The position numbers and the translations under genes are program-made. From contig JAIORJ010000219.1 of assembly GCA_021108185.1 (NCBI GenBank), forward strand, positions 1-36,107: 36,107 nt of DNA, read 5' to 3'. The notes beneath the pieces were generated by a model that was given only the letters and a program-made list of their open reading frames with translations, made no database searches and was not told the DNA's origin. Within the stretch, counting starts at the first letter, position 1; every line of letters starts with the position of its first letter. The DNA comes from Methanococcoides sp. (lineage in GTDB: Archaea; Halobacteriota; Methanosarcinia; Methanosarcinales; Methanosarcinaceae). Of the stretch, positions 6,879 through 30,583 are shown in pieces.

Positions 6879-6964
6879 GACTCCTTTATGACTTTTTGAA
6901 GATTGGGGTCTTCAACACACAGCAAGTCGGGGATATAGTTAAGGGAAATTGTGGGGGGACTTTG

Positions 6965-9394
6965 ATGAGTGATCTATCTATCGAGAAGGGGCTACTGGAG
7001 AGTGAAGAGATATACAAAGCGTTGTTTGAAGGTACTGCCGAGGGAATACTTGTTGCAGATATTGAAACAAAAGAATTCCTGTTTGCCAATCCAGCTATGT
7101 GCAAAATGTTGGGTTATACAGAAGAAGAATTGATGCAAAAAAGTTTACTTGACATTCATCAGGAAAATGATCTGAAATGTGCGATCTCTGAATTTGAGAG
7201 CCAGGCACGAGGGGAGAAAACCTTATCGTCATCCAGACCCTGTTTGCGAAAAGATGGAACAACGATATATGCAGATATTAACACAACTAATGTCTCGATA
7301 AATGGAAGAGAATGTAATGTAGGTTTCTTCACAGATATCACCGAGCGTAAGGAAGTGGAGGAAAGGCTCAAATGGGAGTTCACTGTCAACAAAGCACTAG
7401 CGGAGTTGGCGAATGCACTTATCGATCCTAAAGAAATCGTAGAGAAGATTTCAGATATGGTTCTGGATATCGCCAAGGATCTCACTAAGAGTAAACATGG
7501 ATTTGTTTCTACCATTGACCCTGAAACAGGTGCCAGTGTTGCACGTGGCCTTATCGAGATGATGGAAGTGTGTCAAGTCTCTCTGGAGAACAAACGGATT
7601 GCTTTCCCGATAGGTGAGGACGGAGTCTATCCCAGCCTCTAGGGGCATGCGTTGAACACGAAAAAGGCGTTTTATACCAATTCTCCTCGGACTCATGAAA
7701 AATCCGTTGGAATACCAAAAGGGCATATCGTACTCAACAATTTCCTCAGTGCTCCGGCGGTGGTACGGAACGAACTATTTGGACATATCGCACTTGCCAA
7801 TTCCGAAACAGGTTATACAGAACGGGAACTTAATGTGATCAAAAGGATTGCTGATCTCTATGGCCTATCAATGGAACGCAAGCAGATGGAAGAAGCTCTA
7901 CGTAAGAGTGAGGCCAGTTTGTCCAATGCACAGCGTATTTCTCATGTTGGAAACTGGGATTGGGACATTGTTAACAATAAGTTAAAATTCTCAGAAGAGA
8001 TATATCGCATCCTTGGGATGGAAAACCAGGAATTCGGGGATACCAATGAGGATTTTTTAAAGTTCGTCCATCCTGATGACGAGTTGTTTGTTCAAGATAA
8101 TATAAATATGGCAATATATGAACATAAACCGTATAGTATTGATTACCGCCTTCTTTTGCTCGATGGCTCAGAATGTATTGTTCATGAGGAAGCCGAAGTT
8201 ACGTTTAATGAAACCGATCAGGCCATTCGAATGTTTGGGACTATGCAGGATATTACTGAACGTAAGAAAGTGGAAGAAGCCATTCAACAGTATGCATACA
8301 TTTTCGAGAATGTGCGAATAGGGCTTTATGTCTATTATTTAGAGAACTTAGATGATGATAGAACTCTCAGGCTGATAGCTGCAAATCCAGCAGCTTCTGA
8401 TTTTACAGGTGTTCCCAATGAAGTTATCCTTGGAAATACTTTAGATGAGATTTTTCCCGGTCTCAGAGAGAAGGATATTCCACAGACTTATGCAGAAGTT
8501 GTTCGGACTGGTCAGTCCAGAGTCTTGGAAGATATTTACTATGGTGATGAACGAGTTCTTGAGAATACATTTTCAGTCAAGGTCTTTCCCTTACCAAATA
8601 ATTGTGTAGGGGTAGCATTCGATAATATTACCGAGCGCAAGAAAGCAGAAGAAGCAATGGTCAATGCTAAACTTGTTGCGGAAGCTGCCAACAAATCCAA
8701 GGCCGAATTTATTGCAAATATGACCCATGAGCTAACAACACCCCTTAACGCTGTCATCGGATTTTCTGAAATGTTAATGCTGGGAACTTTCGGAACGCTC
8801 AATGATAAACAAACAAGATATGCGAACAATATTAATTCAAGCGGAAAGCATTTACTGGATCTGATCGACGATATTCTTGACCTTTCTAAAGTTGAAGCTG
8901 GAAAGATGGAACTTCATATTAATGAATTCTTTGTATCCGATGCTATTGATGAAGTAGAAGCATTGATGATACCTATTGCATCACAGAAGAATATTGACCT
9001 GACATGTAACATCGACATTGAAACACCTACCATAAAAGCAGACACAATAAAATTCAAGCAGATTCTTTACAACCTCGTGAACAATGCCATTAAGTTCACG
9101 GATCAAGGAGGTTTTGTAATTATTGGAGGAAAAATATCAGAGGACCTTGTGCATATTTATGTAAAGGATAGTGGCATTGGCATTTCACCAGAGGATCAGG
9201 ATAAACTGTTCAACCCTTTCTTTCAGGCGGATTCTTCAAGTACCAGGGAGTATGGGGGTACCGGTCTTGGCCTTGCCCTTATCAAGAAATTTGTTGAAAT
9301 GCACGGTGGAAAAATCTGGGTTGAAAGTGAAGTTGGAAAAGGTAGCACATTTAGATTTAGCATACCAACTAGTCTTAAAAGCACATCCCATTGA
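6965..9394 (+). CDS. PAS-GAF-PAS-PAS sensor histidine kinase with an in-frame TAG codon (possible pyrrolysine or nonsense mutation)
   Basis: Predicted cytoplasmic hybrid-free sensor kinase, 809 aa if the TAG at 7640-7642 (codon 226) is read through. Order: PAS (about 15-130), GAF (about 150-300), PAS (about 315-430), PAS (about 435-550), HisKA with FIANMTHELTTPLNAVIGF, then HATPase_c with the N-box LVNNAIKFT, DSGIGISPEDQ and GTGLGLALIKKF. There are no membrane segments and no receiver domain. The TAG lies inside the GAF domain; the reading frame is the same on both sides and the protein similarity continues across it (GVYPSL, TAG, GHALNTKKAFYTNSP). Family members usually have Trp at this spot, so TGG to TAG is one base change. 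The ATG at 6965 has GGGGGG just upstream; the second half has only a TTG at 7652 without a ribosome site, so independent translation is unlikely. The partner regulator is not in the window. Confidence 0.85.
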
Positions 9395-10983: not shown

Positions 10984-12966
10984 TCAACTTTGAATGTTTA
11001 CATCTTCGACACAAGCCCGTAATATCTCAGCCACGCTCCATGCCTGGGAAATGCATCCATCTGGCCTATGCGGAATATCACCATCAAATATCTCGGAGAT
11101 AGTTCCTATCCCAGCCTCATCAAGATGAGGTCCAAAATTGAGTAATAATTGCCTGCAATATTCCCGGCTTGAGGGAGATCTGTCGTGCACCTTTGCATAT
11201 GCAGTAACAAATGGTCCGAGTAACCAGGGCCAGACCGTACCATTATGATATGCACGGTCCCGGGAATCTCTGTCGCCCCTGCATCTTCCAATATACCGAC
11301 TGTCATTCGGTGATAAGGTCCTCAGACCATAGGGAGTCAATAGTTCTTCACCGACCCTTTCAACGATCATTTTCTCCTTGTCAGGATCAAGCATTGTGTA
11401 GGGCAGTGATACTGCAAAGATCTGGTTCGGCCTGATGGATGCATCTTTACTGACAGACATATCCCCATTCACAGATACGTAATCATAAAGGCACTTCTCC
11501 GTCGGGTTCCAGAAAGTATCAACGAAGTTGTTCTTTACCAATTGAGAGGTTTCAAGATACTGCTTTGTGTCTGCACCCACCAATTCCCCCAGCCAGTTTG
11601 CAATGTAGAGGGAATTGTACCACAAAGCGTTGATCTCACAGGCTTTTCCGGTCCTCGGTGTTATCTCCCTATCACCGATCTTCACATCCATCCAGGTAAG
11701 CTGACCTTCATGCTCAATGAGTCCGTCCTCATCCATACGGATTCCGTATAAGGTCCCCTCAATGTAGTTATGTATTATTGACCCAACCGTATCCCACATC
11801 TTTTTAACAAATTCGGTATCCTTGGTATAGGAATAATATCGCCCAAGGGAATGGATGAACCAGAGGGAAGCATCAACTGTATTATAGTCCGGAGGAGAAA
11901 TCCCGTCATCTGAAAAACGATTTGGTATAAGGCCTTCTGAGCAGTGTTCCGAAAAGGTGCTCAGAATCTCTTTTGCATCATTGAACCTTCCTGTCACAAG
12001 AGTAAGTCCCGGAACCGAGATCATCGCATCCCTTCCCCAATCCGCAAACCAGTGATAACCTGCGAGTATCGTTTCTGAACTGGTAGAGTTGCGTTGCACA
12101 ATGAAAGAGTCTGCAGCACTGACGAGCTTCTTTGCGAGATCATCTGTTAAATTGCAGCAGTCCTGCAGAGAGCTTTGCCTTGAAAGTTCCCTTTCATATT
12201 CAGAATTAACAAGTTCAAGATCAATGTCCATATTTTCTGAAACAGAGGTCGAAGCTACAACATACATTTCACTCACATGATCCGAGACCTGTCTTTCAAA
12301 ATGACCAGGGTTATAGAGATCATCCTGATAAGCTTCCCCTCGCTCACGTTCGATGTCATATTCTAGATTATAGTACCATTGTGATTCCTGTCCATATTGC
12401 ATATTGGACCGCAGTTGCAGAACACCATCAACAGTTCTCAACTGAACTCCTGAAGCATCATGCCTTTCACTAAAACTGATCTCATCTGCCCTTTTAAGCT
12501 GGTGGAAATCTCTGTTGGTCACAAGAGGCAATATACGGAAAACAAGGTCCTCATTATCAGGATTTATTAGTTTGTACCTGACAATTGTGGTGTTCTGCCC
12601 ATGGATCATGAAGATATTCTTTATCAGCTTAATGTTCCCGATACTGTACTCAAAGGTCGGTAGCGGAGAAGCCGAAAAACGCTCGAGATATTTGAAACCT
12701 GAAGGATACACTGTATCGGGATACCTGTGGACTGCAAGACGATGGACCGCATTTCCAATAACGATCTCTTCATCAAGGGAAGAAAGCAACACCCTACGAT
12801 CAACAGGAGGATTTGCAGAAGCGATCAGTAGACCATGGTATTTTCTGGAATTCTCACCAATAATAGTAGATGATGCGTAGCCTCCAATGCCGTTCGTGAT
12901 CAGCCATTCCCGTGAAATTGCGGATGTAGGATCAAATTCACCAATATATGTTGCATAGGGGGACAT
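10984..12966 (-). CDS. Glycogen debranching enzyme (amylo-alpha-1,6-glucosidase, GH133)
   Basis: Predicted to remove alpha-1,6 branch stubs from glycogen; 660 aa, cytoplasmic. The N-terminal GDE_N domain spans about 1-250, with EWLITNGIGGYASST near 20-34 and NSRKYHGLLIAS near 39-50. The C-terminal (alpha/alpha)6 domain carries GYHWFADWGRDAMI at 303-316, then DYNTVDASLWF, TGKACEINALWYN and YHNGTVWPWLLGP, all hallmarks of archaeal and bacterial amylo-1,6-glucosidases. ATG at 12966 has an AAGGTG site 8 bases upstream. It is the last of seven same-strand genes, 44 bases after the GH15 gene, and is followed by a hairpin at 10831-10869. Confidence 0.95.
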   Translation of the reverse strand: MSPYATYIGEFDPTSAISREWLITNGIGGYASSTIIGENSRKYHGLLIASANPPVDRRVLLSSLDEEIVIGNAVHRLAVHRYPDTVYPSGFKYLERFSASPLPTFEYSIGNIKLIKNIFMIHGQNTTIVRYKLINPDNEDLVFRILPLVTNRDFHQLKRADEISFSERHDASGVQLRTVDGVLQLRSNMQYGQESQWYYNLEYDIERERGEAYQDDLYNPGHFERQVSDHVSEMYVVASTSVSENMDIDLELVNSEYERELSRQSSLQDCCNLTDDLAKKLVSAADSFIVQRNSTSSETILAGYHWFADWGRDAMISVPGLTLVTGRFNDAKEILSTFSEHCSEGLIPNRFSDDGISPPDYNTVDASLWFIHSLGRYYSYTKDTEFVKKMWDTVGSIIHNYIEGTLYGIRMDEDGLIEHEGQLTWMDVKIGDREITPRTGKACEINALWYNSLYIANWLGELVGADTKQYLETSQLVKNNFVDTFWNPTEKCLYDYVSVNGDMSVSKDASIRPNQIFAVSLPYTMLDPDKEKMIVERVGEELLTPYGLRTLSPNDSRYIGRCRGDRDSRDRAYHNGTVWPWLLGPFVTAYAKVHDRSPSSREYCRQLLLNFGPHLDEAGIGTISEIFDGDIPHRPDGCISQAWSVAEILRACVEDVNIQS

Positions 12967-13010: not shown

Positions 13011-14954
13011 TCACGCTTTTTTCAATTCATTCAGAAGCAGAGCATTTTCGATAAACAGTGCACAGCTCCAGCCTAAAGGTCTGGCCCATGCAGCTTGTCC
13101 GGTGTTCTTGTCCACCTGCTCGGACAAGAGACCGGTGCTGGTAGTGCTTCTAATTGTCCATTTAATGTATTCAATTGCCTTATTCACCAGCAGGTCATAT
13201 TCATCATCCCTTTTCTCCAGCGATAGGGCAAGAGTGAGCAAGGCACGGGAAAGCCATAATGTTGTCACAACCCACGGATTACCATCTATATAGTTGTCAT
13301 TTTCATAACGTTTTATCCCAAAATACCCATTTACCGGAACCCTGAGAGCATTTTCAATATGCTCTATCATTGAGAGTATCATGGTCTTTTCATCAGGATC
13401 GTTCGGTGAAAGAAGAGCGAAGGGAATGAAAGTGCCTATCATGCTCGAATCCACGGTCCTGTGGATATTGTTGTCAATGATACCCCGGGAAAAATAGCCT
13501 TCCTCAAGCCACAGTTTCTCAATGGTCTCCTTCCTGACCAGTTCAGCCCTGTCGAACCATTTTTCCGCAAGCATCGGTTCACCATTTTCCCTGGCCAGAT
13601 GGGCAGCACCTTTCAGACCGGCATAGATAGCAGCATTCGTATAACTGAATATGCCTTTATCGGATTCCCACAGGCACCTGCATGGATCGTGAAGACCCTG
13701 GACAGTCCTTCCCATGAGATATTCTGCACCCCCAAGCACCGTTTCCCACATGGTTTTAAGAAATTCAGATCTTTCAGCTACTTCCAGTTTTAGATAATAG
13801 TGATCAATTGCATAAACCGTTGAACCGGTCTCATCTATCTGCGTGGAATCATCAAAATTACCCCAGGAAGGAGCTTGTTTTCCATCAAGCCAGTATCTCT
13901 GGAACCACGAACCATTAGGAAGTTGGGTTCTTTTACACCACCCAAAGAACTTTGTCGCAAATTCAGGATAACCGGCATTCAATAGAGCAAGAACGACTTC
14001 TACCGTATCCCTGTTCCAGCAGAACCCATATCCCCCACACATCTCAAAAGCAGGGTCGAACTCAGGAGAAGCTACAAATGATCCCTCATCAGGGTCATTC
14101 AGTAAGTTCAGAGAAAGTAATGAGCGAACGTATAGGCTATTGACCTCTTTTTTGAAAAGAGGATCATCATCCAGTGCAGATAATTCTAAAGCTCGCTTTT
14201 TTGATAACCATCGAGCTGAGCTATCTTCATATCCATGCATTATGTCAGCAGGGGACTGCTCCATAACATCACCCAGCAGGTCGTATATCAACGGTCTTTC
14301 TGAAGCGATACCGATAAACAGCGTGATCGTGGTACTTTCACCAGGCAAGAGGTTAAGCTCCCACCCGAGCGAACTGTCCAGATCACCGATCTCTTCAACA
14401 TTTCTCTGGAGACTACCATCTTCCATATCACTTCTGGCACTTGCCACCCACCCATTCTCCTGTATCTTACCAACCTGCCACTCCTCAAATTTCGGAGCAC
14501 TTGCCAGACCAATGTAGAAGTTCTGCATGTATTGAACAAGCATACCGGCATCCGGGTCACAAAAAGCAGAGTTTCTTCGATGGGTCTCTCCTGCCTGGAA
14601 ATTAGAATAATAATAGAATTTGCCACTGAGGTGCTCTTTTGATGTGATCTCATACTTTCGTACAAGGACCGGCATTTCCTCATGCATAAAGTCATGAATT
14701 GATACTTCAACACCGGAAAAATGGGACAGATGGGTTGTGACTACATTCGTGCCATCCACATATTCTTGTTTAGAGGTCCATTCCGAAGAATCCGTCCATA
14801 GTAACTTCCCACCTGTGTAAATGCAGGCTTTGGACTCACCAATGTGTTGAGCCCAATCTCGCCTAGGGTAAAACAATCCCAGTATATTACCCTTTTCACC
14901 CATTGATACAAGCAATTTATCATTGCCGAGTATAGCATTTGGATGTCTGATCAA
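13011..14954 (-). CDS. Glucoamylase-type glycoside hydrolase (GH15)
   Basis: Predicted glucan 1,4-alpha-glucosidase of 647 aa, releasing glucose from chain ends. The N-terminal half (about 1-260) is the beta-sandwich domain of archaeal GH15 proteins. The (alpha/alpha)6 catalytic domain carries YGFCWNRDT at 309-317, QIDETGS at 372-378 with the general acid Glu375, and GLLSEQVDKNTG near 607-618 with the general base Glu. GNPWVVTTLWLSRALL is also typical. There is no signal peptide, so it acts inside the cell on stored glycogen. The start is TTG, chosen because AGGAGAG lies 6-7 bases upstream. It sits 22 bases after the active GH57 gene. Trehalase is another GH15 activity, less likely in this context. 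Confidence 0.9.
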   Translation of the reverse strand: MIRHPNAILGNDKLLVSMGEKGNILGLFYPRRDWAQHIGESKACIYTGGKLLWTDSSEWTSKQEYVDGTNVVTTHLSHFSGVEVSIHDFMHEEMPVLVRKYEITSKEHLSGKFYYYSNFQAGETHRRNSAFCDPDAGMLVQYMQNFYIGLASAPKFEEWQVGKIQENGWVASARSDMEDGSLQRNVEEIGDLDSSLGWELNLLPGESTTITLFIGIASERPLIYDLLGDVMEQSPADIMHGYEDSSARWLSKKRALELSALDDDPLFKKEVNSLYVRSLLSLNLLNDPDEGSFVASPEFDPAFEMCGGYGFCWNRDTVEVVLALLNAGYPEFATKFFGWCKRTQLPNGSWFQRYWLDGKQAPSWGNFDDSTQIDETGSTVYAIDHYYLKLEVAERSEFLKTMWETVLGGAEYLMGRTVQGLHDPCRCLWESDKGIFSYTNAAIYAGLKGAAHLARENGEPMLAEKWFDRAELVRKETIEKLWLEEGYFSRGIIDNNIHRTVDSSMIGTFIPFALLSPNDPDEKTMILSMIEHIENALRVPVNGYFGIKRYENDNYIDGNPWVVTTLWLSRALLTLALSLEKRDDEYDLLVNKAIEYIKWTIRSTTSTGLLSEQVDKNTGQAAWARPLGWSCALFIENALLLNELKKA

Positions 14955-14976: not shown

Positions 14977-16179
14977 TCATTCTTCGTTCATTTCAGCCAG
15001 TTTCCTGAAAACACAGGATTTGAAATCCAATAATGCTGCAATGAAATTTATGGCTGCATCATAGGGTGATGTATGGATACTGAAATACGAATGTACATCT
15101 CCATCACCTAACCATTTAGTACTCATGTAGTAATAATGATCAGATGTAAGAAGATGCCTCCATATGTTGATGAGCTTCGGATCATTCGTTCTTTTCACAT
15201 AAGGTCCAAGCATTTTTGCCTCTTCGAAGCATCTACGCTGCATGTCGTTACCAAGCCATGCACTTGTATCCCTCTCCATATCTGCCCATGAGATCGTGTT
15301 AAAGTCGCCGACATCTATCTCTCCTACCGGTTCGTACTTCTCGACGATCTCAGAAGGAGTATTGAACTCAAGACCTTTGTTAAGAACCTCACCAGGTAAA
15401 GCCCTGAGGAAATCAAAGATACCGGAGTCGGACCATTGATGCTCACCAAAGGTCTCGTAATCCATGAAGATGTTCATACAATCTCCTTGTTCTGTGGCAG
15501 CCCAGTGTGCCCACTTGTCAGCAGTTAATGGATACTCTTCCCACCATCTCGCCGAGAAACGATAACCGATATCATCACTCATCTTATAGTTCCTGAGAAG
15601 AACGGGTAGGTCACAATCCTTTGCTTTGTAGACATAATTAGGTGAACGGGAGTCCAACAGCTGATCAACACCTTCTGTAAGTATTGCTTTGTAACCCATG
15701 GATGAAACTGTTTCCGCAATACTGTTATTGTAAAGGAGTTCCGTATTCCTGAAAACCTGTGGTTTTACACCAAGCAGGTCTGAAGTAAGCTCATGATGTT
15801 CCAGGATCTCTTCCCTAAACTCGTTCTTGTCATCGAAAAGACCTGCAAGGGAATGATAATTGGTCTCATCGATAAATTCCACCCGTTTTGAGTCTGCAAG
15901 TTGGGTGAAAACATCAAGTACATCAGGATTCCATTTTTCGCACTGGCTTAGAAGCGTACCGGTTATTGAAACACTGAACTTGAAATTGCCTTCATGCTGG
16001 TCAACGAGTTCTGCCAGGAGGGTCGTGGCTGGAAGGTAGCACTTACGGGCAACCTTCTCGAAGATATTCCTGTTTATTGCAACATCGAAATACCTTTCAA
16101 ACCCTTTAGAATCATCCGGCCAGAACCACTTCAAACGATACGGCTGATGGAGTTGGAAGTACATGCATACGGATTTCAT
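14977..16179 (-). CDS. GH57 alpha-amylase-like glycoside hydrolase
   Basis: Predicted intracellular retaining alpha-glucan hydrolase or transferase of 400 aa. GH57 conserved regions: FQLHQPYRL near 8-16 (His11), FRNTELLYNN at 143-152 with the nucleophile Glu147, and MDYETFGEHQW at 239-249 with the acid/base Asp240. The helical segment following the barrel ends with an STKWLGDGDVHSYFS motif, common in archaeal GH57 amylases. The ATG overlaps the preceding gene's stop (ATGA) and has a GGAGGTGA site, so the two are translationally coupled. GH57 also includes branching and 4-alpha-glucanotransferase activities; the short length favours alpha-amylase. No separate branching enzyme is seen in the cluster. 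Confidence 0.9.
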   Translation of the reverse strand: MKSVCMYFQLHQPYRLKWFWPDDSKGFERYFDVAINRNIFEKVARKCYLPATTLLAELVDQHEGNFKFSVSITGTLLSQCEKWNPDVLDVFTQLADSKRVEFIDETNYHSLAGLFDDKNEFREEILEHHELTSDLLGVKPQVFRNTELLYNNSIAETVSSMGYKAILTEGVDQLLDSRSPNYVYKAKDCDLPVLLRNYKMSDDIGYRFSARWWEEYPLTADKWAHWAATEQGDCMNIFMDYETFGEHQWSDSGIFDFLRALPGEVLNKGLEFNTPSEIVEKYEPVGEIDVGDFNTISWADMERDTSAWLGNDMQRRCFEEAKMLGPYVKRTNDPKLINIWRHLLTSDHYYYMSTKWLGDGDVHSYFSIHTSPYDAAINFIAALLDFKSCVFRKLAEMNEE

Positions 16180-17306
16180 ACCTTCACCTCCAGTATTGCG
16201 CGTTTAAAGTCCGAAAGTGCGGAGAAAATATTGACTGCCTTTTCATAACCGAGATTCTGGTTATCAGACCCCATCTCCAGCAATATTTCGCTTTGCTGCA
16301 AGTATCGATAGATACAGTTCAGTTTATCATATTCAGGAGCACCTTTTATAGACTGTAGGATCTCACCGATACTTATCAGTTCATGCAGGTATAGGTGCTG
16401 CGGGTGATTGCCCATCAGATTATGCATCCCATAGCGAGAAGTGGACTTGTTCATGATAGATGGAAGTTCCTTTGTCTTAAAATTCTTCAAAGCTTCTTCA
16501 GGTGTTATCATGGAAATTCCATATTTCTCAAAACTTGCCGGAAGATCGATGAGGAATTGAAGTATATCACTTCTGTTATGCTGATGGGAAAGGATAGAAC
16601 TGTATTTGAAATGTAATGTGGTCACATCGCCTTCCATGTTGGCTATCCATGAAGCAAATTTATCAGCTATCAAAGGGTAGCTTATCCATTTCTGATCTGA
16701 AAAGCGGATCTCTATATCTTCACTTAAGGGTATGTGACGCAGCAACGTTGGTATATGATTATCATAAACCTGGTTTGGATCATTTCCATACAATAAGTTC
16801 TCCGAACCTTCTGAAATAAGGCACTTGAACTTCATCTCCTTAAGGATTGCACTGAGCTCTTTTGTAAGTATCAGTTCAGTATTTATGAAAGTCCGGGGAT
16901 TGACATTGAAGATCTCCTTGATCTTATCCCGATGCATGGTGACCTGTTCTTTAAATTCCTTACTATCAGGGAAAAGGGATGATATGGAATGATAATAAGG
17001 TGATGCTGAAAACCCGGCACCCCTGTCTTTTAGCTCCTTAAATGATTCTATTACAGCAGGATTCCACTTACATTGATCTAAAAAGATGCCGGATATATCA
17101 AAAGTATACTTTGCACCGTTATCTATGGAATCCAGCAAAGCTTCATTCGTACGGATTATCTCCGGGACATTTTTTTCTAAAGCAGAGTACATTTTGGACT
17201 GATCAAAATATGTTTCGAATTCCGGAGAGCGATACCCCTCCGATGGCCAGTACCATTTTAGCACACAAGGTAGATGTACTTCTGAACAGATGCAAACCGA
17301 CTGCAT
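16176..17306 (-). CDS. GH57-like protein lacking the catalytic acid (probable pseudoenzyme)
   Basis: Protein of 376 aa, paralogous along its whole length to the next gene. The N-terminal VHLPCVLKWYW matches LHQPYRLKWFW, and FINTELIL at 140-147 keeps the nucleophile position Glu144. At the fourth GH57 region, the paralogue's MDYETFGEH is FKYSSILSH here. The acid/base Asp becomes Lys234 and the following Glu becomes Ser, so normal hydrolysis is unlikely. It might bind glucan, regulate, or pair with the active copy. The reading frame is intact and coupled to the next gene by a 4-base overlap, which argues it is kept. Start ATG at 17306 has AGGAGG 7 bases upstream; a TTG six bases earlier would lie too close to that site. 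Confidence 0.85.
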   Translation of the reverse strand: MQSVCICSEVHLPCVLKWYWPSEGYRSPEFETYFDQSKMYSALEKNVPEIIRTNEALLDSIDNGAKYTFDISGIFLDQCKWNPAVIESFKELKDRGAGFSASPYYHSISSLFPDSKEFKEQVTMHRDKIKEIFNVNPRTFINTELILTKELSAILKEMKFKCLISEGSENLLYGNDPNQVYDNHIPTLLRHIPLSEDIEIRFSDQKWISYPLIADKFASWIANMEGDVTTLHFKYSSILSHQHNRSDILQFLIDLPASFEKYGISMITPEEALKNFKTKELPSIMNKSTSRYGMHNLMGNHPQHLYLHELISIGEILQSIKGAPEYDKLNCIYRYLQQSEILLEMGSDNQNLGYEKAVNIFSALSDFKRAILEVKV

Positions 17307-17365: not shown

Positions 17366-18535
17366 TTAGTTTTTGAGAGCATTAAGGTATGCTTCACTTG
17401 TATTTTCTGCGATATTGAGCCAGTTGTACCTGGTCTCGATAAGTTCGTTACCGGCTTTTCTCATGCTGTCATTGGAGAGGTCATCAAGTACGTAATTTAT
17501 GCCCCATGCAATAGAATCCGGATTTTTGTAGACAAGGATACCATCAACGAAATTATCGATTATTTGGACCGCATCCGTTGCAACGATGGTCCTTTCAGCA
17601 TCCCACCCTTCAAGAACAACTATACCAAAAGGTTCGTTCCTGCTCGGAATACAGAGAATATCACATGCGTTGAACCAGTCCTTGGCTATTTCATCATCCA
17701 CATACCCCAGGAAATGACAATTATCTGAAACTTTTTCAGCATTTGCAAGAGCTTCACATGGAGGGCGCATTTCACCTTCCCCGATGAAAACAAATTCCGT
17801 GTCCCAACGATGATCCAGCACTTCAGGAATAGCTTCAACAAGTATATCCGGACCTTTTTGGTAGCTCATACGTCCTATGAACAGAACAACCGGTGCGAGA
17901 GGATGGATACCGAATCTTTCTTTCACTTCACCTGCATCAACATTCTTTTTGATCTTTCCATGGAAGATACCATTCGGAATGATCGAGATCTTCTCATCGG
18001 GTATCTGGTACAGGAACTTGATCTCATCTGTAAGTTGCTGTGATGTGGATATGACCTTCGTGGCTTCATAGCCAGATTTCCATTCCCTATGGGATATTTC
18101 CTCGGCTTCCCACCAGTTTCCATGTTTGTTACCATTCCGCCCCCATTCGGTACTGTGATATGTGAACATAAAAGGTATACCAAATTCATATTTGATCCTT
18201 GAGACCACATTGAAAGGATGCCAATCGTGTGCATGCAATATATCGAACTTGCCATATTCCTTCGTAACATCAAGGAATCTCGAGTACATTGAATCACACA
18301 TGCTATCCATTTGCTGAACAATGCCTCCTGAGAGAGAATGGTCTACCCGATGGTAGTGAACCCCATTGACCTTCTCATATGGTTCCAGCCCATTATTTCT
18401 GGTAAATATGTGGACCGAATGTCCCATCTCAGCAAGAGCTTCAGCAAGTTCGGAAACATGCGGAGCTATACCACCCACTTTTATCGAGTGTAGACTCTCC
18501 CAAGAGAACATCCCGATCTTTAAATTTTTCCCCAT
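17366..18535 (-). CDS. Glycosyltransferase, GT4/GT5 type (glycogen-synthase-like)
   Basis: Predicted retaining GT-B glycosyltransferase of about 389 aa. The N-terminal GGIAPHVSELAEALAEMGH binds the acceptor side, followed by HAHDWHPFNV near 110. The C-terminal domain begins PVVLFIGRMSYQKGPDIL, and the nucleotide-sugar motif EPFGIVVLE near 300-310 has the EX7E spacing of GT4 and GT5 enzymes. Archaeal relatives make glycogen-like alpha-1,4-glucan or related glucosides. No membrane anchor is visible. ATG at 18535 (MGKNLKIG) was chosen; a TTG 15 bases earlier is possible, and the ribosome site is weak in both cases. It sits 59-61 bases from its neighbours in the glycogen cluster. The exact donor and product are unsure. 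Confidence 0.85.
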   Translation of the reverse strand: MGKNLKIGMFSWESLHSIKVGGIAPHVSELAEALAEMGHSVHIFTRNNGLEPYEKVNGVHYHRVDHSLSGGIVQQMDSMCDSMYSRFLDVTKEYGKFDILHAHDWHPFNVVSRIKYEFGIPFMFTYHSTEWGRNGNKHGNWWEAEEISHREWKSGYEATKVISTSQQLTDEIKFLYQIPDEKISIIPNGIFHGKIKKNVDAGEVKERFGIHPLAPVVLFIGRMSYQKGPDILVEAIPEVLDHRWDTEFVFIGEGEMRPPCEALANAEKVSDNCHFLGYVDDEIAKDWFNACDILCIPSRNEPFGIVVLEGWDAERTIVATDAVQIIDNFVDGILVYKNPDSIAWGINYVLDDLSNDSMRKAGNELIETRYNWLNIAENTSEAYLNALKN

Positions 18536-18596
18536 TTTTTTCAAATCCAATTAGTTTATAGTATTAGTTAAATATTTAGATTAGTACTTAAAAGTA

Positions 18597-19586
18597 TCAT
18601 TCAGAGCCATCCTGAAAATTACCCTGAAGATATTTCACAGCGGTTTCCGGAGGCATTGTATTGATGTATACTTCTGTGTTTTTCTCAAAACCCGCTGCCT
18701 TCGTTGTAACCGGTTGAAGCTTTAAGTTAAAGTGATATCCAGGTTCGTCTCTTAGCTGATAGAACATGTAATTATATGGTATCTCACCCATATTGTCCCG
18801 GAGACATGAGAGAGCAGAACGTATTGCTTTACCCAGAGAGTTCAACTGGTCCTGATCAAAGCCTGAGATATGATTTGTATGTCCCTTAGGCAGGATCCAC
18901 ATCTCATACGGGACCTTTGAGCAATAAGGTGCTATAACCGTAAAATGCTCATTTTCATATAAGAGCCTCTCACTTTTGCTTTCTTTTTCTACGATGTCAC
19001 AATAAGGACATCTTGAAAATGATCCTATGACCTTCATCTCTTCCATTAATAGCGGAGGTTTAATGGGCATCGCTATTAGCTGGGAATGGGTATGTTCCAA
19101 AGACGCACCCGCCTTTTCCCCCCAGTTCTTAAACAGTGAAACGTATTCGATCTTATCAATGGCTTCGTAGTGAATTACACGATCCTGATAGACCTTCATA
19201 AGTAATGCCATCTCTTCATCTGAAAGATCAGGGATCAGATTCTCATGCGTAGGTGTTTCAACTATAACTTCATGAAAACCATAACCTGGAAATACCTCAT
19301 GATCTGAATTAACTTCACCTGCATCCGGAGCAAGTGCAGGATAAAGATTTGGCATACAACGCACATCCCATCCTGTTACTCTTGAACTTTCGGAATCTTT
19401 CAGAATGCTGCCATTTTTATAAACAGCAGTTGCAAGAGGTGTTTTATCTTCTTCCCCGGCACAAAAAACACAGTTATTGGAGGCCTTTTCTTTCTTTTCT
19501 GCTTTGAACACTGAAGGTCTTTTACTTCTTCCTGGTGCTATTATGCAATATTCATCCAGAAAATAGTGCTTGCGTATCTCTGACAT
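18597..19586 (-). CDS. galT: Galactose-1-phosphate uridylyltransferase family protein (HIT superfamily)
   Basis: Predicted nucleotidyl transferase of 329 aa linking UDP-sugars and sugar-1-phosphates. CVFCAG near 40 and CPYC near 215 are the zinc-binding pairs, and LEHTHSQ near 162-168 is the HXHXQ active site whose second His forms the uridylyl intermediate. YEMWILPKGHTNHI lies in the second half. In this cluster it would more logically supply UDP-glucose for glycogen synthesis, or recover glucose-1-phosphate, than serve galactose use, since no galK, galE or glgC lies in the window. Several starts are close together (TTG 19604, ATG 19598, 19595, 19586); I took the last, preceded by GATGGGG, with modest certainty. 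Confidence 0.85.
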   Translation of the reverse strand: MSEIRKHYFLDEYCIIAPGRSKRPSVFKAEKKEKASNNCVFCAGEEDKTPLATAVYKNGSILKDSESSRVTGWDVRCMPNLYPALAPDAGEVNSDHEVFPGYGFHEVIVETPTHENLIPDLSDEEMALLMKVYQDRVIHYEAIDKIEYVSLFKNWGEKAGASLEHTHSQLIAMPIKPPLLMEEMKVIGSFSRCPYCDIVEKESKSERLLYENEHFTVIAPYCSKVPYEMWILPKGHTNHISGFDQDQLNSLGKAIRSALSCLRDNMGEIPYNYMFYQLRDEPGYHFNLKLQPVTTKAAGFEKNTEVYINTMPPETAVKYLQGNFQDGSE

Positions 19587-19661
19587 ATTCCCCATCATCC
19601 CCAATATAGATATATTCAGTTTCTTTTCATAAGAACAATACTTTTTTAACAGGTACAGATA

Positions 19662-21467
19662 TTATTTTAATTTTGTACCTGTAAGCATCTCGTAGTATTC
19701 CTTAGTAGGCTCCTGCCAGTTCATATCCTTAGCAAGGAGATTTGCTTCCTGACAGAGGAAGTTGTATTTTGTCTTGTCATCAGTGTAAGTGTCTATGAAG
19801 TAATCCATGGTAAGTGCATAATCTGCTATCGTTTCAAGATAGGCAAGATCGATATTATCAACTACCAGTACCCCACCCATCCCCATCACTAGGCGCTTGG
19901 CAGTGCTTAACGCATCACTGAATCCACAAACCTTGCTGACAATGCTGGGTGTTCCTTCCTTTCCAGCTTCAAGACCAGTTAACAGGAAAGGCTCATATCT
20001 TGAAGGGAATATGCCGGCAATACAACCAGCCATGAATTCATCGACAGTCATGTTGAAACCGCCATCATGATCTGACAACCACTGAGGGTATAGAACAGCA
20101 GAAACATACCTGTCACCATTTGGAAGTTTGGAACATTCAAGTCCCCTGTTCTCGATCATATTTTGGATTCGTAATTCTTCACCGATCAGTATATCTTCAT
20201 TGAGCATGATCGGGAAATTTTCCGGCAGATTTGTTTTAGGACCATGAGCAGTTATGATGAAACACACGACCCTGTAGTTATTATCAAGCTTACCGGCTTC
20301 GACCTCTATCCTTACCATCCTGTCAAGAAGAAGAAGTGAATCCAGTAGGTCAGGATAACCTTTATTTTCAATTTCGATACGTGATATAGAGAATATAGGA
20401 ATGATCTTTTCCGGTAATAGCTCTACACTGTGATGCGTATTATAAAGTTTACTGGCAGTTAATTCCTGAATCTTAGTACGGCATTTTAACTTTTTATCCA
20501 ATAATTCATCGATGTCCTCGATCTCAAGATCGATACCATTCCTCACAACAATGGAATCAATGCCATAGAACAATTTGATCTCTTTTTTTGTAGAATCTCC
20601 TACTGCAGTTACAACATCTGCATATGAGGACAACGACTCAAGAGTTGCCATATTCTTTGGAGTCCCATCACCCAATGAACTATCATTTTCCCGTATTTTT
20701 TTAATAGAAAGATGTCCTGCAACTCTTCCCGGAATAGTTGCATGATAGGTTGCAACTGTATTGATCGTAACACCGGTCTTCTTGAGTCTGGCAATTGCAT
20801 AAAATACCCCGAACTCGTGGCAGTGCAGTGAAACATACAATGTAGGCATCAAAGAACTGGCAAATTCGGATATCAGTTTATCTTCATAGGCACCGGCAGT
20901 CTCTTCCCTGAGAGATACTAGAGTATGAACAAATTCAGATATTGCATATGAAAGATTAAGATAATGTGCATATTCGGTCCTGTTCCCCAGATCCTCAAAG
21001 GATAAGGAATCGAGGCCAATGAGGTCATAAGCTTCAGCCTTGATCTTATTTTCCAGACAAATATGTTCGCCTTTATATTCAACGACCACTCTACAAAAAT
21101 CATTGGTCTTGAACATCAAGTAAACAATTTCTATCTCTTTGACCTTTATTGCTCCAACAACAATTTCAATGCCTTTTACCTTGAGTTCTTCAATGATCAT
21201 TGAAAGTTCTTCATCGGGAACAAAATCATCAAATTCAGTCATGTCTGTGATACGATTCAGACCTTTGTTCCAATCCGAACCACTATGACCATAATAAGAA
21301 CCCACAACGAAGATCCTTGGAGTCGATTCCTCTTCGATGGTACCGTCTTCAAGCATTTGAGCAAGATTCTTTACTTCCGCATCAATAACATTCCATATAC
21401 CGCCCATCTTATTGGACTTCGGACCAGCTTCTTCACCAGCAATAATAATACATTTACGTTCGATCAC
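19662..21467 (-). CDS. Glycogen synthase-like glycosyltransferase (GT3-like)
   Basis: Predicted cytoplasmic glycogen synthase of 601 aa. The N-terminus has GPKSNKMGGIWNVIDAE with the glycine-rich GGIW loop and GSYYGHSG near 72-79. HCHEFGVFYAIARL near 213-226 and VATYHATIPGR follow. The C-terminal domain has IFPSRYEPFLLTGLEAG with the catalytic EX7E-like pair. This layout resembles the fungal/animal GT3 family more than bacterial GlgA, and GT3 enzymes use UDP-glucose, which fits the galT gene next door. The start is GTG in the string GGGTGATC, with GGGGG about 8 bases upstream. It is the first gene of the cluster, so the main promoter should lie at 21480-21560. The family call is good; the donor sugar is inferred. 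Confidence 0.85.
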   Translation of the reverse strand: MIERKCIIIAGEEAGPKSNKMGGIWNVIDAEVKNLAQMLEDGTIEEESTPRIFVVGSYYGHSGSDWNKGLNRITDMTEFDDFVPDEELSMIIEELKVKGIEIVVGAIKVKEIEIVYLMFKTNDFCRVVVEYKGEHICLENKIKAEAYDLIGLDSLSFEDLGNRTEYAHYLNLSYAISEFVHTLVSLREETAGAYEDKLISEFASSLMPTLYVSLHCHEFGVFYAIARLKKTGVTINTVATYHATIPGRVAGHLSIKKIRENDSSLGDGTPKNMATLESLSSYADVVTAVGDSTKKEIKLFYGIDSIVVRNGIDLEIEDIDELLDKKLKCRTKIQELTASKLYNTHHSVELLPEKIIPIFSISRIEIENKGYPDLLDSLLLLDRMVRIEVEAGKLDNNYRVVCFIITAHGPKTNLPENFPIMLNEDILIGEELRIQNMIENRGLECSKLPNGDRYVSAVLYPQWLSDHDGGFNMTVDEFMAGCIAGIFPSRYEPFLLTGLEAGKEGTPSIVSKVCGFSDALSTAKRLVMGMGGVLVVDNIDLAYLETIADYALTMDYFIDTYTDDKTKYNFLCQEANLLAKDMNWQEPTKEYYEMLTGTKLK

Positions 21468-29686: not shown

Positions 29687-30496
29687 TCAATTGAGCTTTT
29701 CATGATGACCTTCAAGAATTTCATCCCTGAAACCACGATAGCATCTCTCCACAAGGTCAAGGGTACCTTCGATGTTCAGAATATCGAACTCAAAGATATC
29801 GGCAAATTCCTTGACGATATTATCAAACTCCTTTTCGTAATGAAGCCCGGTATTCAATTTTGCAACTTTCTTGTAGCCAATGGAATCGAACACCCATTTC
29901 GAGGTTTCAACATCTGTCGGGTCTTTACCAAACCCTCCGGCAACGAGCATATCCCCCCAATTGGCTGCCCACATCGGAGTAAGGAAGAACGTACCTACAC
30001 CCTTGAAACTTTTAAGGTGGTCAAGATATGCATCCCTGCCACCAAGTACAGCTCCAATACAATCATCAACGATCTCGCCATTCTCTTCCTTGAGGATACA
30101 GATCCTGCAATTAAGGTCACTAAGCTCTTCCTCTACCTTGCCAAGAACATTTCCACAAAGCCCGTAGAACAACAGGACACCATCAGAAAAGACCGCCATT
30201 TCTTCAACTGCCTTGTAGACCTCGGACTTAAGGTTTTGAGGGATAGCATGCAGAGCGAACTCAAGGATATTGATGATAAAACAGTATTTGCCAGCACAAT
30301 TGCCCTTGTAAGCAGAGTTCAGGGATGTTGCAGGAACAAGTTTGTAGGAAATTCCGACATCATCAAGCTTTTCCACCAGACGGGAACAATCCTTGTTCTC
30401 CACCACAATAAGCTCATCTATCAGCGGATCGTTCTCCACCAGATGGACTATCTCATCCTCGAACATCCGGCATCCAATAAGACTCATTACAGGCAT
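29687..30496 (-). CDS. DUF1638 protein
   Basis: Protein of 269 aa from the chosen start, cytoplasmic, no known activity. SLIGCRMFEDEIVHLVENDP near the N-terminus, LLFYGLCGNVLG near 110-121 and FFLTPMWAANWGDM near 170-183 are recognisable features of the DUF1638 family. That family is common in methylotrophic methanogens, often near methyltransferase and corrinoid-protein genes. No such gene is visible here. The ATG at 30496 (MPVMSLIG) was chosen because GAGG lies 9 bases upstream; an ATG five codons earlier lacks a ribosome site. Confidence 0.85.
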   Translation of the reverse strand: MPVMSLIGCRMFEDEIVHLVENDPLIDELIVVENKDCSRLVEKLDDVGISYKLVPATSLNSAYKGNCAGKYCFIINILEFALHAIPQNLKSEVYKAVEEMAVFSDGVLLFYGLCGNVLGKVEEELSDLNCRICILKEENGEIVDDCIGAVLGGRDAYLDHLKSFKGVGTFFLTPMWAANWGDMLVAGGFGKDPTDVETSKWVFDSIGYKKVAKLNTGLHYEKEFDNIVKEFADIFEFDILNIEGTLDLVERCYRGFRDEILEGHHEKLN

Positions 30497-30583
30497 CTGT
30501 TCATTCCTCATACAATAGCTGGATAATGTTGATTATCGGAACTATGTGAACTGCCACCCATTGAAATAAGTGACTTCTTGTTT

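Follow-up and report, generated by a model that had tools for sequence, protein, structure and literature searches.

An intact GH57 protein with a remodelled active site is encoded in tandem with an amylase-type paralogue in Methanococcoides

Two overlapping GH57 genes in a Methanococcoides genome

The window analyzed in this study is a 36,107-nucleotide stretch of DNA from Methanococcoides sp. (GenBank assembly GCA_021108185.1, contig JAIORJ010000219.1, positions 1 to 36,107), which carries two adjacent genes for proteins of glycoside hydrolase family 57 (GH57) on its minus strand. We refer to the protein encoded at positions 16176-17306 as PS and to that encoded at positions 14977-16179 as AC, and no other GH57 genes are present in the genome of the window. 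PS is an alpha-amylase-like protein of 376 amino acids and a probable pseudoenzyme, and AC is an intact alpha-amylase-type protein of 400 amino acids that carries the residue pair E147/D240. The open reading frame (ORF) of PS begins with an ATG at position 17306, is preceded by a GGAGG Shine-Dalgarno sequence, contains no internal stops and ends with a TGA at 16178-16176. The PS stop and the AC start share the tetranucleotide ATGA (16176-16179, minus strand), with a second GGAGG sequence lying within the 3′ end of PS, and the overlap is conserved in relatives. An earlier note on this DNA had described an intact gene at 16176-17306 that overlaps its paralogue by four bases, and both descriptions are borne out by these features.

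The Pfam model for GH57 (PF03065, gathering cut-off 21.2 bits) matches PS with 188.6 bits and AC with 285.8 bits. A single-chain AlphaFold2 model of PS (pLDDT 89, pTM 0.89) forms the incomplete (beta/alpha)7 barrel, and its closest folds in the Protein Data Bank are the GH57 structures 7e1y, 1k1x, 3p0b and 5wu7. PS is thus a member of GH57 by both sequence and fold. Searches for solved structures with single sequences or with the AC profile returned no GH57 entries, GH57 matches in profile searches were weak only, and no NCBIfam model provides a name for either protein. Named Methanococcoides records match PS with identities as high as 98%, and PS and AC proteins share 32-40% identity.

PS lacks the proton donor and C-terminal segments present in AC

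In GH57 enzymes, the nucleophile is a Glu at strand beta4, the proton donor is an Asp at strand beta7, and five conserved regions are present, as described in a 2018 survey of the family (PMC6037648). The motif and strand positions given there, together with the strands of the predicted model, provided our residue register, and both catalytic positions lie at the expected strands in the predicted structures. In a pairwise alignment, the AC segment MDYETFGEH corresponds to FKYSSILSH in PS, and NTELL corresponds to NTELI. The proton donor of AC, D240 (codon 15462-15460), is replaced in PS by K234, whose AAA codon (16607-16605, minus strand) specifies the end of strand beta7 (model strand 228-234). 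The AC nucleophile E147 aligns with E144 of PS (codon 16875-16877, minus strand), which lies just past strand beta4 (model strand 139-142).

Conserved region 5 (CSR5) is degenerate in PS. At positions 16380-16440 (approximate limits, minus strand), RYG--MHNLMGNHPQHLY replaces SWADMERDTSAWLGNDMQRRCF, such that ~4-5 residues are gone from the SWADMERDTSAW stretch that is invariant in AC. A GNxxQ remnant is left, and WAD.ERD.SAW is missing from all PS sequences. Also gone is a second C-terminal loop of ~12 residues around AC 'LGDGDVHSYFSIH', many of which are invariant in the AC clade, and conserved region 1 is changed from HQPYR to HLPCV. Among the features that define an active GH57 enzyme, PS therefore possesses the Glu nucleophile at beta4 and lacks both the Asp donor at beta7 and the full set of five conserved regions. 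This design cannot be attributed to chance, because it is kept in 82 distinct orthologues from the family to which the window belongs (hereafter f1).

The altered beta7 motif and the retained nucleophile Glu had both been reported by the earlier note, and both are evident in the alignment. That report overlooked the losses of CSR5 and the second C-terminal loop, and its statement that overall length is kept holds only roughly (376 versus 400 amino acids), since these two losses account for most of the difference. AC has all five conserved regions in addition to E147/D240, and the E and D residues are found in every AC sequence readable at the catalytic positions. From these sequence features, AC is predicted to be an active amylase and PS is predicted to be inactive.

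Catalytic residues are dispensable among PS orthologues

A survey of the 82 f1 orthologues reveals that the donor position is occupied by K (35 sequences), N (35), D (7), R (4) or S (1), and the nucleophile position by E (78) or Q (4). The combined nucleophile/donor states are E/K (35), E/N (32), E/D (6), E/R (4), Q/N (3), E/S (1) and Q/D (1), meaning that the donor is lost in 75 of the 82 proteins and that some representatives carry neither catalytic residue. The Q variants comprise three Methanosalsum sequences, in which Q is paired with N or D, and one Methanosarcina metagenome-assembled genome (MAG), and in each case the gene is still intact and linked to AC. Methanomethylovorans-type PS proteins keep E/D. 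Two other Methanosarcinales families, f2 and f3, also carry PS. Its f2 version has both Glu and Asp with CSR5 already gone, and its f3 version is D/D, with the nucleophile Glu changed to Asp and the donor Asp kept.

Parsimony over the whole tree requires at least four changes between Asp and other residues at the donor position and at least four between Glu and other residues at the nucleophile position, one of the latter probably falling in the outgroup sequence L211. Because these residues have been lost repeatedly in different lineages, each of them is individually dispensable to PS. The distribution of states suggests that CSR5 was lost first, followed by the donor or the nucleophile, lineage by lineage.

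The earlier note had placed its emphasis on the Lys residue, and this emphasis does not survive the orthologue survey, given that different lineages have K, N, R, S or D there. A conserved functional replacement by Lys is ruled out by its presence in only 35 of the 82 orthologues. Lys appears instead to be the version of one lineage, one of several tolerated residues that would have no special role. PS is more accurately described as a protein whose active site has been remodelled and whose catalytic residues are dispensable than as one with its acid replaced by Lys.

The same survey bears on whether PS might still be an enzyme with changed chemistry, one that pairs the Glu144 nucleophile with another acid, that acts on an activated substrate such as a glycosyl phosphate, or that serves as a transferase. 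The retention of E144 in f2 and in nearly all f1 sequences is consistent with such a role, as is the fact that residues D197, E166, R190 and H191 are nearly or fully invariant in PS. Moreover, GH57 alpha-galactosidases reportedly have no structurally confirmed proton donor (PMC6037648). However, intact and AC-linked genes carry Q or, in f3, D in place of E144, the donor drifts among five residues, and no PS protein has CSR5. Therefore, we regard continued catalysis by PS as unlikely.

PS is an old paralogue found only with AC

GH57 matches were found in 95 of 112 f1 genomes, and 93 of these 95 carry at least two copies. In the two genomes with a single match, that match lies at a contig edge: one genome, which is 60% complete, has a fragment of AC there, and the other has a scrap of 21 amino acids. 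In two genomes where only AC is recognized, the 3′ end of PS is present and is cut by the end of the contig. On every contig of sufficient length, PS is accompanied by AC. With this many matched genomes, a local oddity or an assembly error is ruled out as the source of the pair. Both genes are likewise present in f2 and f3, and families f4 and f6, along with nearly all remaining lineages of the phylum, have a single AC-type GH57 protein without PS.

In a maximum-likelihood tree, the PS proteins of f1, f2 and f3 form one clade with support of 100/100, on a stem of 1.03 changes per site that is longer than that of AC. Within the clade, f2 branches first, followed by f3 and f1. In the best tree, PS is sister to the AC proteins of the same three families with support of only 79/81, and the duplication is not precisely dated for this reason. 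The topology indicates that the PS clade is old and has been inherited mostly vertically.

GH57 proteins with altered catalytic motifs also occur in other archaeal lineages (L211 in genome G315, L208 in G187 and L209 in G205). In the tree, L211, with the motif NTG/FNLESFG, does not group with the PS clade. Repeated origins of amylase-like pseudoenzymes therefore seem likely.

PS is maintained by purifying selection

Median ratios of nonsynonymous to synonymous substitution rates (dN/dS) in three genera are 0.088, 0.093 and 0.088 for PS, compared to 0.071, 0.061 and 0.051 for AC. PS is slightly less constrained than AC, yet it is clearly maintained by purifying selection. Within PS, conservation is higher in the loops of the catalytic face than elsewhere in the barrel (entropy of 1.12 versus 1.68 bits, permutation p ~1.5e-4), and AC exhibits the same contrast. 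Furthermore, at 15 positions PS and AC are each fixed, in all three families, to a residue of their own (for example E105/S102, N197/H191, S297/R291 and T345/Q338), and several of the re-fixed PS residues sit on the catalytic face. These differently fixed residues indicate that PS has been remodelled and is not decaying.

A recent or decaying pseudogene would be expected to have lost catalytic residues, as PS has, and the long stem branch of the PS clade would also fit such an origin. This explanation is refuted by a dN/dS of ~0.09 in three genera and by the family-wide age of the clade, and the open frames in the orthologues listed and the distinct fixed residues likewise stand against it. 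We consider its probability to be negligible. Selection and the re-fixed sites fit a new function better than they fit decay, and the view that PS is a maintained pseudoenzyme, as first put forward in the earlier note, is well supported by the dN/dS values, the intact frames of orthologues and the widespread loss of the donor.

A conserved overlap and a proposed partnership

The 4-nucleotide ATGA overlap is found in 77 of 81 measurable PS-AC pairs. It is also present in f3, and the f2 pairs are a few bases apart. Elsewhere in this operon, gene junctions show a 4-nucleotide overlap in only 2 of 135 cases (some genomes counted twice).

This linkage bears on an alternative in which PS works on its own in binding or sensing glycogen, sharing its regulation with AC without contacting it. 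A ligand alone, in the absence of AC, would suffice to account for strong selection and for conservation of the pocket, and the plant protein BAM9, a catalytically dead amylase that regulates starch breakdown, is a precedent (PMC8774843). In contrast, no contig of sufficient length was found to carry PS without AC. The overlap has also been kept while other operon junctions vary. We therefore consider an independent role to be improbable.

We lean, with moderate confidence, toward the interpretation that PS is a maintained, non-catalytic and obligate GH57 partner of AC, either glucan-binding or regulatory, that participates in glycogen turnover. In this scenario, a GH57 amylase gene would have been duplicated in an ancestral lineage of several families of the Methanosarcinales, with one copy remaining the enzyme AC and the other, PS, becoming its non-catalytic partner. 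Translational coupling at the ATGA overlap could ensure matched amounts of the two proteins, which may form a heteromer. The altered pocket of PS might still hold an alpha-glucan chain or a glucan end without cutting it, and PS could thereby position glycogen for AC or gate AC activity. A partnership with the active amylase had been proposed in the earlier note. At the genetic level, this proposal is sustained by strict co-occurrence and the conserved ATGA, and the physical partnership is what we infer from them.

Several observations weigh against this non-catalytic partnership. The overlap can be explained as ordinary operon economy, and the conservation of the catalytic face could be due in part to structural inertia of the barrel. 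The PS proteins of f2 and Methanomethylovorans retain both catalytic residues. Finally, the Glu nucleophile is kept in 78 of the 82 f1 proteins, which is above expectation if catalysis were irrelevant. This high retention of Glu144 is the strongest counter-evidence, and it leaves room for altered chemistry.

The surrounding glycogen operon and the question of branching

The PS and AC genes reside in an operon on the minus strand that encodes, in 5′ to 3′ order, a GT3-type glycogen synthase (19662-21467; PF05693), a GalT-like nucleotidylyltransferase/HIT protein (18597-19604; PF01087, PF16268), a GT4 glycosyltransferase resembling glycogen synthase (17366-18550; PF13692 and PF13439, with TIGR02149 below its cut-off), PS, AC, a GH15 glucoamylase or oligosaccharide amylase-like protein (13011-14954; PF00723, with TIGR01577 at 686 bits, below its 821-bit cut-off) and an archaeal glycogen debranching enzyme (amylo-alpha-1,6-glucosidase, GDE; 10984-12966; TIGR01561 at 647 bits, PF06202/PF12439). 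The constant core in the family is PS-AC-GH15, and the synthase genes move or invert. For example, the GT4, GalT-like and GT3 genes are inverted relative to PS-AC-GH15-GDE in Methanomethylovorans-type genomes (L065, L066, L071, L072 and L076). This pattern suggests that the gene blocks for synthesis and breakdown are separable. Outside the window, the same genome (G000) has a weak match to glycogen phosphorylase (contig C2, ~103601-105004, L217; PF00343, 57 bits) that is absent from most congeners.

A 2024 review (PMC11046441) has raised the question of whether the branching enzymes missing from archaea could be GH57 amylases. No PF09210 protein was found in 61 family genomes or in 40 other genomes tested. 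Likewise, PF00128 (GH13) is absent from 10 Methanococcoides genomes (that of the window and nine congeners) and from most lineages that have only AC, and five GH13 proteins of relatives score below the NCBIfam cut-offs for branching enzymes. Methanococcoides therefore has no GH13 protein and no classical branching enzyme of the GH57 type, yet the window encodes a debranching enzyme. Because the AC-only lineages also lack PF09210 proteins and mostly lack GH13, this gap tracks AC and not PS. The idea that PS stands in specifically for an absent branching enzyme is unsupported for the same reason. That PS and AC together constitute a two-subunit glucan-shaping enzyme, such as a split branching enzyme in which AC cuts and PS holds the acceptor chain, strikes us as quite doubtful.

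Other features of the window

A sensor kinase gene with PAS-GAF-PAS-HisKA-HATPase architecture (6896-9394, plus strand, ~833 codons) contains one in-frame TAG (7640-7642) that sits in the GAF domain (PSL*GHALNTKKAF). The same codon is TAG in one close relative (G022) and TGG (Trp) in another (G023). Methanococcoides is a genus of methanogens expected to use pyrrolysine, and the TAG might be a recent nonsense mutation or, alternatively, an amber codon translated as pyrrolysine. Elsewhere, two ORFs of 274 amino acids are mirrored on opposite strands (29702-30526, plus strand, and 29687-30511, minus strand). The plus-strand ORF is probably spurious, because it has no Pfam match and its minus-strand mirror encodes DUF1638.

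Comparison with known systems

If our interpretation is correct, the PS-AC tandem represents a natural enzyme/pseudoenzyme pair in a storage-polysaccharide operon of methylotrophic methanogens, kept throughout an archaeal family to which the genetically tractable Methanosarcina belongs. The role of functionally uncharacterized GH57 amylase-like proteins would become directly testable, as would the building and breakdown of glycogen in methanogens without a classical branching enzyme. The stepwise series of losses would also provide a good case for how an enzyme turns into a partner protein.

GH57 alpha-amylase-like (AAMY-like) proteins without catalytic residues have been known since 2011 (Janecek and Blesak), and the 2018 survey places 126 sequences in this group, 60 of them archaeal (PMC6037648). 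The PS proteins are probably among these 60 members, and some AAMY-like exceptions have complete machinery, as do the PS proteins of Methanomethylovorans and f2. The passages of the survey consulted here describe this group through its sequences and do not mention a fixed tandem with the active paralogue, an ATGA overlap, lineage-wise loss or selection, and we found no description of an obligate PS-AC pair in the open-access literature. The obligate coupled pair and the stepwise loss of residues therefore look new, whereas GH57 proteins lacking catalytic residues do not.

The Methanocaldococcus jannaschii-type GH57 alpha-amylase is the sole characterized alpha-amylase of its branch (PMC6037648). 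AC resembles this enzyme in having all five conserved regions, E and D at the catalytic positions, and the terminal HYYY tyrosines of the published alpha-amylase logo. In contrast, PS has neither these tyrosines nor the donor Asp, and most of its CSR5 is gone. More distant parallels also exist. The plant beta-amylases BAM4 and BAM9 (PMC8774843) are functional analogues for the possible role of PS, in that a catalytically dead paralogue is kept as a regulator of storage-glucan breakdown, although they are plant proteins from another amylase family and offer an analogy only. Similarly, pectin-degrading enzymes of beetles (PMC6549527) include glycoside hydrolase pseudoenzymes kept beside active paralogues. 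These insect digestive proteins also belong to a different family, and the likeness to PS and AC is again one of analogy.
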